DNA from: an uncultured Pelagibacteraceae bacterium
GTDB taxonomy: Bacteria > Pseudomonadota > Alphaproteobacteria > Pelagibacterales > AG-422-B15
Direction of reading: 5' to 3'
Length of the DNA: 56,289 bases
NCBI GenBank assembly: GCA_902523535.1
Contig: CABYZQ010000007.1
Coordinates: 1 to 56,289 of the forward strand
Position numbers and translations under genes: made by a program. The notes below the pieces were generated by a model that saw nothing but the letters and a program-made list of their open reading frames with translations, had not been told where the DNA came from and searched no databases. Every line of letters begins with the position of its first letter. Within the stretch, counting starts at the first letter, position 1. This document shows, one piece after another, positions 2,503 to 14,816 of this stretch.

Positions 2503-3329
2503 TACACGTTCTCCAATAGTGACATTAATTCGCCACTAACACCCACTTTGATTTCATGCCATATCTGAAAAGAACAAGCTGCTTGTTCAATTAGCATGCG
2601 TAATCCATTTTGAACTTTTAAACCTTTTGCTTCCGCTTGTTCTAAAAAGCTGGATCGCTTAGGGTTATAAATCAAGTCATAAATGAATGTTTCCGTTTCT
2701 ATATTTTCAAAACTCAAAATATTATTACGCTCTCCTGCCTTTTGCCCCAAGCTAGTTGTGTTAACAATGAACGATGAAGAGTTGGCGTAATCATCTAGCT
2801 CTTCTGTGCTAACGGGACTTGAGTTTATTGATAAATCATTAAGCAAAATCATTGCTTTTTCAGGTGTTCTGTTAAACAATCTCACCTGGCTTCCCAATTC
2901 GTTTAACGCATGAACCACAGACCTGGCGGAGCCCCCAGCGCCAAGAACAAGTGTCTTTTTGTTAGTAATGTTTTCTTCTATTGTTTTCTTATCTAAAGAA
3001 TTAATGAAACCAACCGCGTCAGTGTTGTCGGCATTTATTTTGTCAGGACTTAGGGTAAGAGTATTGGCCGACCGGAGTTTTTTCGAAACGTGAGATGTTT
3101 CATCGCTTATATTAAACGCGAGTTCTTTGAGGGGGACTGTAACATTAATACCTCCAAAGCCTTCGGCCTTTAAGTTATTCATCTGCTCTTCAAACTTATT
3201 TGGATCTACGTTTATTTTCTCGTATGGCTTTGTATCCAGTCCCAATTCCTTAATCCAATGATTATGAATAATCGGTGAAAGACTGTGGTCAACTGGAAAA
3301 CCTATAACCGCCGTTCTGTCAGTGGCCAT
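2502..3329 (-). CDS. aroE: Shikimate dehydrogenase
   Basis: AroE reduces 3-dehydroshikimate to shikimate with NADPH in aromatic amino-acid synthesis. The shikimate-binding HSLSP near the start, the catalytic lysine in NVTVPLKE, NADNTDAVGF, and the NADP-binding GAGGSARS turn are all present, and the C-terminus keeps the usual glutamine-containing helix (GLRMLIEQAA). The ATG at 3329 is preferred over an upstream TTG at 3338. It gives 275 residues and an 11 bp overlap with maf. The gene is read leftward from the candidate origin, between maf and coaE. Confidence 0.95.
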   Translation of the reverse strand: MATDRTAVIGFPVDHSLSPIIHNHWIKELGLDTKPYEKINVDPNKFEEQMNNLKAEGFGGINVTVPLKELAFNISDETSHVSKKLRSANTLTLSPDKINADNTDAVGFINSLDKKTIEENITNKKTLVLGAGGSARSVVHALNELGSQVRLFNRTPEKAMILLNDLSINSSPVSTEELDDYANSSSFIVNTTSLGQKAGERNNILSFENIETETFIYDLIYNPKRSSFLEQAEAKGLKVQNGLRMLIEQAACSFQIWHEIKVGVSGELMSLLENV

Positions 3330-3921
3330 TGTTTTCAAACAACATGCCGTTGTCCCATAAAAATTGTGTTAGTGGTATCATTGATATTCCTTGTATTGAG
3401 AATAAATCACTGCCGACACGCTCAAATAATTTTATACCTTCTTCTTCAATTGCATAAACCCCGACCAAGCCAAGTATCTTTTCATCAATGCTCTCTAAGT
3501 ATTCGTTGATGATTTCTTCATCGAGTATTCTCATTTTCATTTTTCCTCTATCAACATATTTCCATATTATATTGTTTTCTTTAGCTACTACCGTGGTTGT
3601 TATAAGGGTGTGTTCCTTTCCACTCATGCTCTTTAGTTGTTCGTGAGCTTCATCAAAGTTTTTTGCTTTATTAACCAGCTTCCCATTTAGGTCTAATCCT
3701 TGATCGGATCCTATAACCAAACCATCATTTGATATAGATGCCTTTAAAGCTTTCATCTCAGCCAGCTTTGTAACAATCTCTTCTGGTGAACTTTCTGACA
3801 TGGATAGTTTAATTTCATCCTCATCAACACCATGATCAACTGTTTTAAATTTTATTTTGGCATTTGTTAAAAGTCTTGAGCGTGTTTGACTTTTAGACGC
3901 TAGTGTTATTTGTGTGTTCAT
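3319..3921 (-). CDS. maf: Maf-family nucleoside triphosphate pyrophosphatase
   Basis: Maf proteins hydrolyse non-canonical or modified nucleoside triphosphates to monophosphates and are thought to clean the nucleotide pool. The N-terminal LASKSQTRSRLL is the family hallmark, followed by the conserved acidic stretch (DHGVDEDEIK). The position often written as ADT is GSDQGLDL here, as in many alphaproteobacterial members. At 200 residues it is full length. It is the first gene read leftward from the candidate origin and overlaps aroE by 11 bp. Nucleotide specificity cannot be read from the sequence. Confidence 0.9.
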   Translation of the reverse strand: MNTQITLASKSQTRSRLLTNAKIKFKTVDHGVDEDEIKLSMSESSPEEIVTKLAEMKALKASISNDGLVIGSDQGLDLNGKLVNKAKNFDEAHEQLKSMSGKEHTLITTTVVAKENNIIWKYVDRGKMKMRILDEEIINEYLESIDEKILGLVGVYAIEEEGIKLFERVGSDLFSIQGISMIPLTQFLWDNGMLFENNGH

Positions 3922-4196
3922 AAGCTATTAACAACCTGAGTAATCGGTGTGGATATATATTATATGTTTACTGTTTTTAAACATTTACAATATTTTGGCC
4001 TTTTTATCCTATATTTTCTTGCTTTTCGTCCACCTGTGGATAATGCCTCAAATATTATTCTACCTTGTGGGTAATGTCACAAATGCCTTAAATGTCTCCG
4101 TTAAAGACATGTATTGATTTGTGGGCAAGTAAGAGGTTTTTATATATACACATCATCACAGGTACATAAACTAATACTACCTTATATATATATTAT
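3922..4196. other. oriC: Candidate chromosomal replication origin (oriC)
   Basis: This 275 bp gap is the point from which genes diverge (maf leftward, hemE rightward). It contains one perfect and several near-perfect DnaA boxes, all in one orientation. TA-rich tracts lie on both sides (about 3953-3970 and 4138-4199) and could serve as unwinding elements. A 12 bp direct repeat (4042-4053 and 4082-4093, one mismatch, 40 bp apart) and a hairpin (ATGTCT 4092-4097 / AGACAT 4105-4110) lie among the boxes. Origin next to hemE, with parAB/rsmG close by, is the known alphaproteobacterial arrangement (Caulobacter, Rickettsia). The assignment is by motif and context only. Confidence 0.8.
3948..4128 (-). 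promoter_or_regulatory. DnaA box cluster (four sites, same orientation)
   Basis: A perfect DnaA box, TTATCCACA on the minus strand, lies at 4035-4043. One-mismatch boxes lie at 3948-3956 (ATATCCACA) and 4066-4074 (TTACCCACA), and a two-mismatch site at 4120-4128 (TTGCCCACA). Spacings of 31 and 54 bp between the last three are close to three and five helical turns, which would put bound DnaA on one face. DnaA bound here may also affect hemE, whose start is only 69 bp beyond the last box; that is inference. Confidence 0.78.
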
Positions 4197-5180
4197 ATGA
4201 GTATTCTTATAGAAACACTAAAAGGCAAGAAAACAAAAACCCCCATTTGGTTAATGAGACAAGCGGGGAGGCATTTACCTGAATATATTAAAATAAGACA
4301 AAAATATAAAGACCTTATGGAAATGTTTCTTGATCCTGAGGTGGTAACCAAAATCTCACTTCAACCTGTAAAGCGATACGGGTTGGACGCATGCATAGTG
4401 TTTTCTGATATATTAATGATCCCCTATGCATCTGGATGTGACGTTAGTTTTAAGGAGGGCGTGGGCCCTCAAGTTAAATTTAATGAGAAATTTAATTTTG
4501 CATCACATAAGCTGGACCCAGTTATAGAAGGTATTGAAAGTATCAAAAACGAATCTGAAGTTCCCCTAATAGGCTTTGTAGGCGGACCCTGGACAACGTT
4601 GTTATATTGTTTGTTTGATAAAGAAGAAAGATCACAAATGAACAAAAATCTCATTCATAAAAATGAAAAAAGAATAAACAATCACATCGAAGACCTAACC
4701 GACATAATTTCTAATTACGCAGTGCAACAAGTAAATGCGGGCATTGATGCATTTCAAATATTTGAGTCTGCAGCTGAAGATCTTGAAGACGAATATTTCG
4801 ATCGATGGTGCCTAAAGCCTACACAAAAAATTATTCATTCGATAAAAAGTAAAACAGATATACCTATTATTGGATTCCCAAGAAAAACAAGTAAAGAAGG
4901 ATATGTGAAATATTCAAATATAGATAAACTTGATTGTATAAGCTTAGATTGCGATTTTGATTTGGATCATATCAATAAACTAAACCCGAATGTTGCCTTT
5001 CAAGGAAACCTAAACCCAACAGCCTTATTGGCAGAGAATAATACCTTGCAAGAAGAGTTGGATAAAATATTAATTGCTTTTAAAAATAGAGCACATATTT
5101 TTAATCTTGGCCATGGGGTGTTACCAAACACCTCCATTAAGAAAGTAGAAGAACTCGTAAACACAATAAGAGCAAAATGA
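4197..5180 (+). CDS. hemE: Uroporphyrinogen III decarboxylase
   Basis: HemE removes four carboxyl groups from uroporphyrinogen III to give coproporphyrinogen III. The N-terminal RQAGRHLPEY (from R21), the FSDILMIPYA segment with the catalytic Asp near residue 71, and GFVGGPWT are family signatures. At 327 residues it is slightly short but intact, and the C-terminal NLGHGVLP is present. The ATG directly follows a run of TA repeats with no visible Shine-Dalgarno sequence, so the message may be leaderless or very short. It overlaps hemH by 4 bp (ATGA). Confidence 0.96.
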   Translation: MSILIETLKGKKTKTPIWLMRQAGRHLPEYIKIRQKYKDLMEMFLDPEVVTKISLQPVKRYGLDACIVFSDILMIPYASGCDVSFKEGVGPQVKFNEKFNFASHKLDPVIEGIESIKNESEVPLIGFVGGPWTTLLYCLFDKEERSQMNKNLIHKNEKRINNHIEDLTDIISNYAVQQVNAGIDAFQIFESAAEDLEDEYFDRWCLKPTQKIIHSIKSKTDIPIIGFPRKTSKEGYVKYSNIDKLDCISLDCDFDLDHINKLNPNVAFQGNLNPTALLAENNTLQEELDKILIAFKNRAHIFNLGHGVLPNTSIKKVEELVNTIRAK

Positions 5181-12542: not shown

Positions 12543-13166
12543 ATGGAGGATTCGCCAGAAGCTCTTATGGAGCTAAAAAGTAATGTTTCACGTGAAACAA
12601 TCAATAAACTCGATGTTTACAGATCATTGATACTAGCTGAAAAGCAAAGTCTCATATCAAAAAAGGACAAAAACCTTCTTTGGATTAGGCATTTTTATGA
12701 CTCGTTGCGAATAAGTGATTTGATTCGTGAAAATAAACAAAACATAATCGATATTGGCAGTGGATCAGGTCTTCCAGGAATTCCATTATCATTGTTTTAT
12801 AATGGCGAAAATTCAATATTTTTGTGCGAAAATCGAAGGAAAAGAGCAGAGTTTCTAGAGTACTGTATAGATGCTCTAAAACTGAAGAATACCTATGTGA
12901 TTCCTCATAAAGCTGAGAAAGCAACAAATCAAAAATTTGATGTTGTTTTGGCTAGAGCAGTTGGACGATTAAATGATCTATTATCAATAAGTTATAATAT
13001 ATCGAAAAAAAGTACTACATTCCTTTTTCATAAAGGTATACATATAGATGATGAGATTGCTGAAGCCACTAAATATTGGATTTTTGATTATAAATTACAT
13101 GAAAACAGTGTTGAAAAAGGATCTTATATTTTGGAACTAAATAATGTAACAAAATCAAGTACTTAG
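12543..13166 (+). CDS. rsmG: 16S rRNA (guanine-527-N7) methyltransferase
   Basis: RsmG (GidB) methylates G527 of 16S rRNA in the 530 loop. The NVSRETINKLDVY opening and the SAM-binding IIDIGSGSGLPGIPLSL are family signatures, and VLARAVGRLNDLL is the conserved downstream block. Length is 207 residues. The codons for the VSRE stretch also form a perfect parS palindrome at 12584-12599, so the peptide sequence and the segregation site share the same bases. An internal ATG at 12567 is a possible alternative start. The stop is 1 bp from parA. Confidence 0.95.
   Translation: MEDSPEALMELKSNVSRETINKLDVYRSLILAEKQSLISKKDKNLLWIRHFYDSLRISDLIRENKQNIIDIGSGSGLPGIPLSLFYNGENSIFLCENRRKRAEFLEYCIDALKLKNTYVIPHKAEKATNQKFDVVLARAVGRLNDLLSISYNISKKSTTFLFHKGIHIDDEIAEATKYWIFDYKLHENSVEKGSYILELNNVTKSST
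12584..12599. promoter_or_regulatory. parS: parS centromere site inside rsmG
   Basis: TGTTTCACGTGAAACA is a perfect 16 bp palindrome and an exact match to the bacterial parS consensus. It lies near the 5' end of rsmG, about 0.6 kb before parA and 8.4 kb from the candidate origin. ParB would load here and spread with CTP, and ParA would move the complex. No second copy was noticed by eye in the window. The site is seen directly; its function follows from the family. Confidence 0.93.
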
Positions 13167-13167
13167 T

Positions 13168-13956
13168 ATGAAAAGGAAAATAATTGCTATTTCTAATCAA
13201 AAAGGAGGGGTCGGAAAGACGACCACAGCTATAAACTTATCCACAGCCCTCGCGGCTACAGGCCAAAAGGTATTAATCATTGATCTAGATCCTCAGGGTA
13301 ATGCAAGCACAGGTTTAGGGGTCGATTATGGTCAGAGGGAAAATTCTATTTACGAAGTATTAGCGGGACAAGCAAACATTTCAGATTCCATTCGAAAAAC
13401 CGAAATTGATAATCTTTTTTTAATTCCTTCAACAGTTGATTTGTCTGGAATTGAACCTGAACTTGCTGATGTTAATGATCGAGCTTTTACATTAAAAAAT
13501 ATTTTTAACGCAAATGAAAAATTAAATGATTTTGATTTTATTTTTATTGATTGCCCACCCGCGTTAAGTTTATTGACTGTCATGGCAATGACGACAGCCA
13601 ATGCAATTATTGTTCCATTGCAATGTGAATTCTTCGCACTCGAAGGCCTCAGTCAATTAATTAAAACAATTGAACGTGTAAGACAGAATCTAAATCCTGG
13701 TTTATCTATTGATGGGATTGTGTTGACGATGTACGACAGCAGAAACAAATTATCCTCTCAAGTTGCAACAGATGTCAGGAATCATTTAAGGGAACAAGTT
13801 TATGAAACCATTATACCTCGTAATGTAAGAGTTTCAGAAGCCCCATCATTCGGTATGCCTGCTTTAATCTATGATCAAAGAGCATCAGGCAGTCAGGCTT
13901 ACTTAAGTCTTGCAAACGAAGTCATTAAACAAAACAAAGAACAAGAGGCAGCATAG
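13168..13956 (+). CDS. parA: Chromosome partitioning ATPase ParA
   Basis: ParA (Soj) is a Walker-type ATPase that binds DNA non-specifically and drives origin segregation with ParB. The deviant Walker A motif KGGVGKTT (residues 12-19), LIDLDPQGNAS and the FIDCPPALS Walker B region are clear. At 262 residues without an N-terminal DNA-binding extension it is the chromosomal type. The stop TAG shares its G with the parB GTG start. Its place downstream of parS in rsmG completes a ParABS system. Confidence 0.97.
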   Translation: MKRKIIAISNQKGGVGKTTTAINLSTALAATGQKVLIIDLDPQGNASTGLGVDYGQRENSIYEVLAGQANISDSIRKTEIDNLFLIPSTVDLSGIEPELADVNDRAFTLKNIFNANEKLNDFDFIFIDCPPALSLLTVMAMTTANAIIVPLQCEFFALEGLSQLIKTIERVRQNLNPGLSIDGIVLTMYDSRNKLSSQVATDVRNHLREQVYETIIPRNVRVSEAPSFGMPALIYDQRASGSQAYLSLANEVIKQNKEQEAA

Positions 13957-14816
13957 TGGTTACAAACACAACAAAAAAAGGTTTAGGTCGCGGTCTTTCA
14001 TCTTTAATGGGAGATACAGAAACTACTCAAACAAAAAATACCAACGTTGGTCAAGAAACTAAAATACCAATTGCGAATTTAAAACCAAGTCCTTCTCAAC
14101 CAAGAAGATTGTTTAATAAAAATAGTATTAATGAATTGGCTGACTCCATAAAAGCAAAAGGTTTAGTTCAGCCACTGGTGGTGAGGCCTTCACCGTCTGA
14201 TGCCAATAGTTATGAAATTATTGCGGGTGAAAGAAGATGGCGCGCAGCACAAATTGCACAACTGCACGAGGTACCTGCAGTTATAAGAAACTTTAATGAT
14301 ACTGAAGCACTTGAAATTGCGATCATTGAAAATGTTCAACGATCAGATCTGTCACCAATTGAAGAGGCTGCAGGTTACAAAAGATTGATTGAAAATCATG
14401 GTCATACCCAAGAGGATTTGTCAGGAATTGTAGGAAAAAGCAGGAGTCATATAGCAAATATTATTCGATTATTATCTTTGCCACAATCCATACAAGACAT
14501 GATAACTGAGGGAAAAATATCATCGGGCCACGCGCGCGCAATCATGAACAGTGCATTTCCAGAGCAATTAGCAGAAAAAATTATTAATGAAAATTTAAGC
14601 GTGAGGGATGCAGAAAATTTAGCAAAAGATAAAAAAGGTATTATAAAAAAATTAAAACTCAAAGATCCTGATACAATTGATCTTGAAAATAAAATTTCAG
14701 AAAAACTTGGCATGACCATCAACATCAACCATAAAGGTAAAAAAGGCGGCAGTATAAAAATTGATTACAAAACCCTTGATCAATTAGACATGATTACTCA
14801 AAAGCTTAAAAATTAA
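13956..14816 (+). CDS. parB: Chromosome partitioning CTPase ParB
   Basis: ParB (Spo0J) binds parS, clamps DNA with CTP and stimulates ParA. The N-terminal GLGRGLSSLMG (9-19) is the ParA-interacting tail. The CTP-binding GERRWRA (91-97), ENVQRSDLSPIEEA (from 125) and the helix-turn-helix around 151-172 (QEDLSGIVGKSRSHIANIIRLL region) follow in the usual order. Length is 286 residues. The start is a GTG overlapping the parA stop by one base. Its TAA shares the palindrome TTAA with the holA stop on the other strand. Confidence 0.96.
   Translation: MVTNTTKKGLGRGLSSLMGDTETTQTKNTNVGQETKIPIANLKPSPSQPRRLFNKNSINELADSIKAKGLVQPLVVRPSPSDANSYEIIAGERRWRAAQIAQLHEVPAVIRNFNDTEALEIAIIENVQRSDLSPIEEAAGYKRLIENHGHTQEDLSGIVGKSRSHIANIIRLLSLPQSIQDMITEGKISSGHARAIMNSAFPEQLAEKIINENLSVRDAENLAKDKKGIIKKLKLKDPDTIDLENKISEKLGMTININHKGKKGGSIKIDYKTLDQLDMITQKLKN

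Follow-up and report, generated by a model that had tools for sequence, protein, structure and literature searches.

The 275-bp gap between maf and hemE (positions 3922-4196) is almost certainly the replication origin (oriC) of a SAR11 genome, and its sequence places it with the hemE-linked origins of Alphaproteobacteria. This kind of origin is known and its assignment here is well supported; its delimitation for SAR11 is new. From the anatomy, conservation, and origin-typical neighborhood of the gap, we infer DnaA binding, unwinding at DnaA-trio triplets, and use as an origin. A single origin that combines an array of DnaA boxes, a DnaA filament on triplets, and an opening AT tract is very probably the best explanation of the gap as a whole. 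The host genome is a SAR11 draft of 25 contigs (84% complete), and the window, meaning the whole 56-kb stretch analyzed, is its contig 7. A sequence-only reading had already taken the gap for an origin, and synteny, gap length, conserved box columns, a profile search, nearby parAB and parS, and a box-poor dnaA locus support that view.

Gene neighborhood of the gap

Genes to the left of the gap are read leftward (dnaQ-coaE-aroE-maf) and those to the right are read rightward (hemE-hemH-hemJ-rho), in agreement with an earlier statement that gene polarity flips here. The flank that characterizes hemE-linked origins (COG1806, maf, aroE, coaE, and dnaQ opposite hemE) is present, with COG1806 itself gone. 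The AT content of the gap is 70% compared to 65% for the window (GC 30% vs. 35%), consistent with a hemE-linked oriC. The genes mnmE, mnmG, rsmG, parA, and parB all lie within 11 kb of the gap. The main features are:

3319-3921, minus strand: maf (Maf-like nucleotide pyrophosphatase), left neighbor, reading away from the gap (NCBIfam PRK02478.1, E = 1.3e-46; TIGR00172, E = 2.5e-31; both below curated cut-offs)
3922-4196, no strand: putative oriC, the entire maf-hemE intergenic region (about 263-277 bp in 45 of 45 family relatives read)
4197-5180, plus strand: hemE, right neighbor, marker of alphaproteobacterial origins (NCBIfam TIGR01464, E = 4.5e-93, above cut-off)
12543-14816, plus strand: origin-proximal segregation genes rsmG (12543-13166; Pfam GidB), parA (13168-13956; AAA_31), and parB (13956-14816; ParB_N/HTH_ParB/ParB_C)
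12584-12599, plus strand: perfect parS TGTTTCACGTGAAACA inside rsmG (0 mismatches; sole site in the window)

The RP001-type gene (PF03618, COG1806) had been reported as absent from this locus, and it is absent from all 53 family genomes searched, many of which are incomplete; control matches were obtained in E. coli, Bacillus, and Caulobacter. At all 3 sister-family loci checked, the PF03618 gene adjoins the gap, and wherever the scan took in maf as well, the gene separates maf from the gap. Because the gene is missing in the family and kept in the sister family, the family or its ancestor appears to have lost it and the origin stayed.

We searched about 1.26 Mb (the window, 400 kb of the same-genus contig G037, and sampled stretches of genomes G055 and G060) with a profile of the 88 letters on the hemE side, whose training sequences came only from other genera and the sister family. 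Window positions 4120-4194 ranked first (E = 0.0026, 18.2 bits), followed by the gaps in G037 (E = 0.0064) and G060 (E = 0.031); the next match had E = 1.7. These top three matches are the hemE-adjacent gaps present in the sample. When only sister-family sequences were used for training, the window was not among the best matches.

GC skew was sampled in four complete sister-family genomes (20 stretches of 20 kb per genome). The cumulative minimum fell about 37, 57, 70, and 30 kb from hemE, and a two-arm fit beat all 100 permutations in each genome. In the large contig G037 the minimum was 38 kb from hemE, and the two-arm fit that scored best in G060, as distinct from its cumulative minimum, was 190 kb away. 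Skew in SAR11 mostly tracks gene strand, and its minima are broad. Fourfold-site skew, tried for removing gene-strand effects, was too noisy for use. Given the gene-strand effect, the broad minima, and the distant fit in G060, skew backs the region rather than the base.

DnaA boxes and conservation across relatives

Candidate DnaA boxes in the gap occupy six columns on both strands:

3948-3956, minus strand: B1, ATATCCACA, one mismatch; present in 15 of 15 near relatives, degenerate in the sister clade
4026-4034, plus strand: B2, TCGTCCACC, abutting B3 in head-to-head orientation; relatives have TTATCCACC or TCATCCACC
4035-4043, minus strand: B3, perfect TTATCCACA; in 11 of 15 near relatives, with TTATCAACA in 4
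4066-4074, minus strand: B4, TTACCCACA, one mismatch; conserved column, TTATACACC in the sister clade and TTATACACA in other genera
4119-4128, minus strand: B5, TTGCCCACA (4120-4128), two mismatches, within invariant TTGTGGGCAA; TTATCCACA in genus g2
4137-4152, plus strand: B6, ATATACACA (4144-4152), within invariant TTTTTATATATACACA; at most one match per genome, none for the reversed control

The sequence-only reading had listed one perfect, two one-mismatch, and one two-mismatch box, and these are indeed found at 4035, 3948, 4066, and 4120. It had placed all boxes in one orientation, but opposite-strand boxes occur at 4026-4034 and 4144-4152 and are conserved in position family-wide. Its 12-bp direct repeat is real in part: AATGCCTCAAAT at 4042 has a copy 40 bp away at 4082, but the copy is imperfect (92%). 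A further copy lies at 4073 (83%), 31 bp from 4042. No CtrA motif (TTAA-N7-TTAA), strict IHF consensus, or GANTC occurs in the gap.

Across the 56-kb window, three boxes with at most one mismatch fall within 275 bp only in the maf-hemE gap, which also holds the window maximum of boxes with at most two mismatches (six in 275 bp). From sequence alone, the chance of such a cluster is P = 2e-4 for one named gap; that an equal cluster turns up in any 275-bp stretch of the window has a chance of 0.11, or of 0.02 if the boxes must lie as close as observed (127 bp). Genome-wide, there is no enrichment of the exact box (14 vs. 12 for the reversed control). On sequence alone, the case for the cluster as more than chance is modest and only suggestive; the comparison with relatives decides the origin question. 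A second exact TTATCCACA is located inside parA (13237-13245) and could be chance. The host DnaA bears the box-binding signature GRDHTTV.

The order of maf, gap, and hemE is kept in all 45 family relatives read, and gap length is near-constant though HemE identity drops to about 48% in the most distant genus. Each alignment column was scored for likeness to TTATCCACA, with the window's clade left out. Such an alignment had been suggested as a check on the boxes, and in it weak boxes on either strand keep to the same columns. The top columns in the sister clade and other genera are 4066 and 4120 (minus strand) and 4026 and 4144 (plus strand), the same as the window's own; 4026 is the top plus-strand column in other genera and only one of several tied at three mismatches in the sister clade. 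Four of the six box columns are conserved across genera. The perfect box B3, earlier emphasized as the key element, is lineage-specific: it is lost in the sister clade, which has TCTCTAACA-like letters instead, and it was ruled out as the origin core.

The best-conserved stretch (4110-4190) is on the hemE side and had been overlooked. It contains TTGTGGGCAA, TTTTTATATATACACA, CACAGG, CTAATACTA, and an AT tract. Its identity reaches 75-85% at best between clades with HemE at about 58%, compared to 15-55% for most of the rest of the gap. Of the 53 family genomes, 37 have exactly one match to the pattern TTGTGGGCAA-N8-TTTTTATATATACACA and none has several, and the reversed control of this pattern never matches; among the 16 genomes lacking an exact match, some assemblies miss the locus and others differ in letters. 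By this comparison, selection apparently acts on the letters of the weak boxes and of the opening element beside hemE, rather than on those of the perfect box.

In some near relatives (loci L023-L026), maf is about 92-95% identical where complete and the gap 93-96% identical in nucleotides, and HemE is only 73-75% identical. To judge by these identities, the pattern (window 3319-5180) marks a putative edge of recombination or gene replacement where the origin meets hemE. Comparable breakpoints are known from Wolbachia (PMC1914354). Across loci L074-L087, the hemH gene that follows hemE matches the window's hemH at 67-77% identity in some family genomes and at only about 27% in others (G042-G044, G046, and G047), indicating two versions with a patchy distribution.

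The hemE-side element and its putative DnaA triplets

In the basal unwinding system (BUS), DnaA starts at boxes and moves on to 3'-GAT-5' triplets on a single strand (PMC6669920, PMC8287927, PMC8235120). Toward hemE, box ATATACACA is followed in order by:

4153-4162, plus strand: TCATCACAGG, a degenerate box with GG; the sister clade and many other Alphaproteobacteria have TCCACAGG
4168-4181, plus strand: DnaA-trio-like repeat AAA CTA ATA CTA CC; opposite strand 3'-GAT TAT GAT-5'
4182-4196, no strand: AT-only tract TTATATATATATTAT, abutting hemE; presumed first melted and extended stretch

The strict published BUS rule asks for a box with at most two mismatches no more than 16 bp from at least three NTN triplets. 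The window has three triplets with middle A on the bound strand (CTA ATA CTA, 4171-4179), and it narrowly fails the strict rule, as the spacer from ATATACACA to these triplets is 18 bp and the adjacent box is degenerate. Five loci from genera g2, g3, and g4 (L082, L083, L085, L087, and L088) pass it. Clearer versions are seen in L083 (ATAACCACAGG-AACAA-CTACTACTA) and L085 (TTAACAGGAT-CTACTACTACTACTA-TTCTATATATA). By analogy, the hemE-side element probably works like BUS; membership in BUS is not claimed.

In the proposed mechanism, DnaA-ATP would bind the boxes arrayed on both strands at 3948-4152, most of which are weak. Tandem sites close to hemE, ATATACACA and then degenerate TCATCACAGG, would guide DnaA onto the triplet repeat CTAATACTA, where a filament would form on the opposite strand (3'-GAT-TAT-GAT-5'). 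The filament would open the AT tract against hemE and the helicase would be loaded. ParA, ParB, and the nearby parS would then pull the copied origins apart.

Sequence upstream of hemE was surveyed in one genome per alphaproteobacterial family. The element seen in SAR11 also precedes hemE in many families (TCCCCG, TTATCCACAGG, CAT, (CNA)n, CCTTT). Both for these loci and for the DnaA comparison below, reading was confined to the loci that scored best in each search, so the samples are non-random. The hemE strand carries runs of at least five CNA triplets at 6 of 30 loci and the other strand at none (mean of 0.02 in dinucleotide shuffles), and 13 of 30 strict-pattern loci sit 53-216 bp before a hemE. 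In 289 alphaproteobacteria, the genome-wide count of the strict pattern CACAGG-N0-9-(CNA)4 was not above that of the reversed control; only the position of its matches is informative. The middle base of the triplets is free (3'-GNT-5'; top strand A 31, T 18, C 12, with a pattern that fixed C and A and left the middle base open).

In Bacillus DnaA, Asn187 binds the middle adenine, and Arg202 and Glu228 bind guanine (PMC10721633). The aligned SAR11 DnaA has Phe, Lys, and Glu at these positions. All 30 alphaproteobacterial DnaAs sampled have an aromatic residue at the Asn187 position (28 Tyr, 2 Phe), which makes 32 of 32 with one more and the window's own; of 28 DnaAs from other Pseudomonadota, none has one (A 11, Q 10, T 4, S 2, N 1). 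The host DnaA is encoded on the minus strand at L001:1489-2901, and Tyr/Phe at this position appears to be a class-wide alphaproteobacterial mark. We tentatively suggest that Alphaproteobacteria, including SAR11, might open their origins by a variant DnaA-trio (3'-G-N-T-5') located between a box-GG anchor and hemE, paired with a DnaA whose Tyr/Phe stacks any middle base while Lys and Glu228 read guanine. The free middle base and the aromatic residue are correlated class-level traits, and shared ancestry may explain both. The BUS authors themselves suspected triplets without a middle adenine (PMC8287927). Among the papers searched, which did not include the original 2016 trio paper, none treats such a variant trio in Alphaproteobacteria. 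One locus (L236, in the 0.8-Mb genome G345) has TTATGCACAGTTTGCACAGGCCCTACAACTACTACCTCTC followed by an AT tract and no hemE within the locus; it is likely an origin unlinked to hemE.

Alternative explanations and known origins

The gap separates divergent genes and TATATA-rich blocks adjoin hemE, as would be expected if it were a maf/hemE promoter region regulated through DnaA boxes, with the true origin elsewhere. A promoter scan did no better than shuffles, however (3 promoter-like sites vs. 2.2, none directed at hemE), and a divergent promoter was rejected as a candidate. It is also very improbable given that relatives whose proteins have diverged to about 50% still share the gap length, the box columns, and the box-GG-triplet-AT element, that the same element stands before hemE across Alphaproteobacteria, and that skew minima of relatives lie near hemE. 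Those minima also argue against an origin at dnaA. Many bacteria have their origin there, and dnaA, dnaN, and recF can be read as adjacent on contig 13 (mutM-rpsT-dnaA-dnaN-recF). A better box cluster near dnaA, named earlier as a reason to abandon the maf-hemE gap, was looked for; upstream of dnaA there is just one box, with one mismatch, and the lack of a cluster ruled out this location and makes it scarcely credible.

It is unlikely, to a lesser degree, that the gap is the origin and opens in its maf-side AT-rich part (3955-4000), with triplets that are not a DnaA-trio. The maf side is AT-rich too, and the window fails the strict BUS rule. Against this, most of the maf side is 25-55% identical between clades and the hemE side is best conserved, and CNA runs before hemE are far above shuffles and confined to a single strand. 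We therefore favor an origin that opens on its hemE side.

The origins of Caulobacter crescentus (Cori) and Rickettsia lie between hemE and RP001/COG1806 (PMC1914354; PMC4285127). The SAR11 origin resembles them in having hemE on one side, DnaA boxes including weak ones, and high AT content (PMC1914354; PMC4285127). Unlike them, the SAR11 family has no COG1806 (PF03618), so maf abuts the origin, and the gap has no CtrA motif (TTAA-N7-TTAA). Pelagibacter had no ctrA ortholog in a published survey (PMC2877005), and CtrA sites are not universal, as some alphaproteobacterial origins lack them (PMC1914354). Wolbachia/Anaplasmataceae origins are AT-rich gaps of 385-620 bp between hemE and COG1253 with a few DnaA boxes (PMC1914354). 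There, as in SAR11, hemE is kept and COG1806 is not at the origin (PMC1914354); the SAR11 origin differs in its neighbor (maf, not COG1253) and shorter gap, and in having no CtrA sites, which are reported for Wolbachia/Anaplasmataceae. The sister SAR11 family Pelagibacteraceae has a gap of 270-286 bp (three read) by hemE with a weaker hemE-proximal element, and unlike in the window's family, the kinase-PPPase gene (PF03618) is still between gap and maf. The window shares with the Bacillus subtilis BUS (DnaA-box 6/7, GC stretch, DnaA-trios) the order of box, GG, triplets, and AT tract, and 3'-GAT-5' on the matching strand (PMC6669920, PMC8287927, PMC8235120). It differs in its degenerate adjacent box and 18-bp spacer, and many other Alphaproteobacteria differ from B. 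subtilis in their 3'-GNT-5' triplets and DnaA Tyr/Phe at the Asn187 position.

Metagenomic peak-to-trough estimates of growth depend on the positions of replication start and end. The terminus has been fixed from read coverage (PMC9589681), and an origin located at base level would be an independent anchor for such estimates. Natural triplets with any middle base, together with a class-specific change in the reading pocket, would allow an inexpensive test of the way in which DnaA recognizes triplets in single-stranded DNA.
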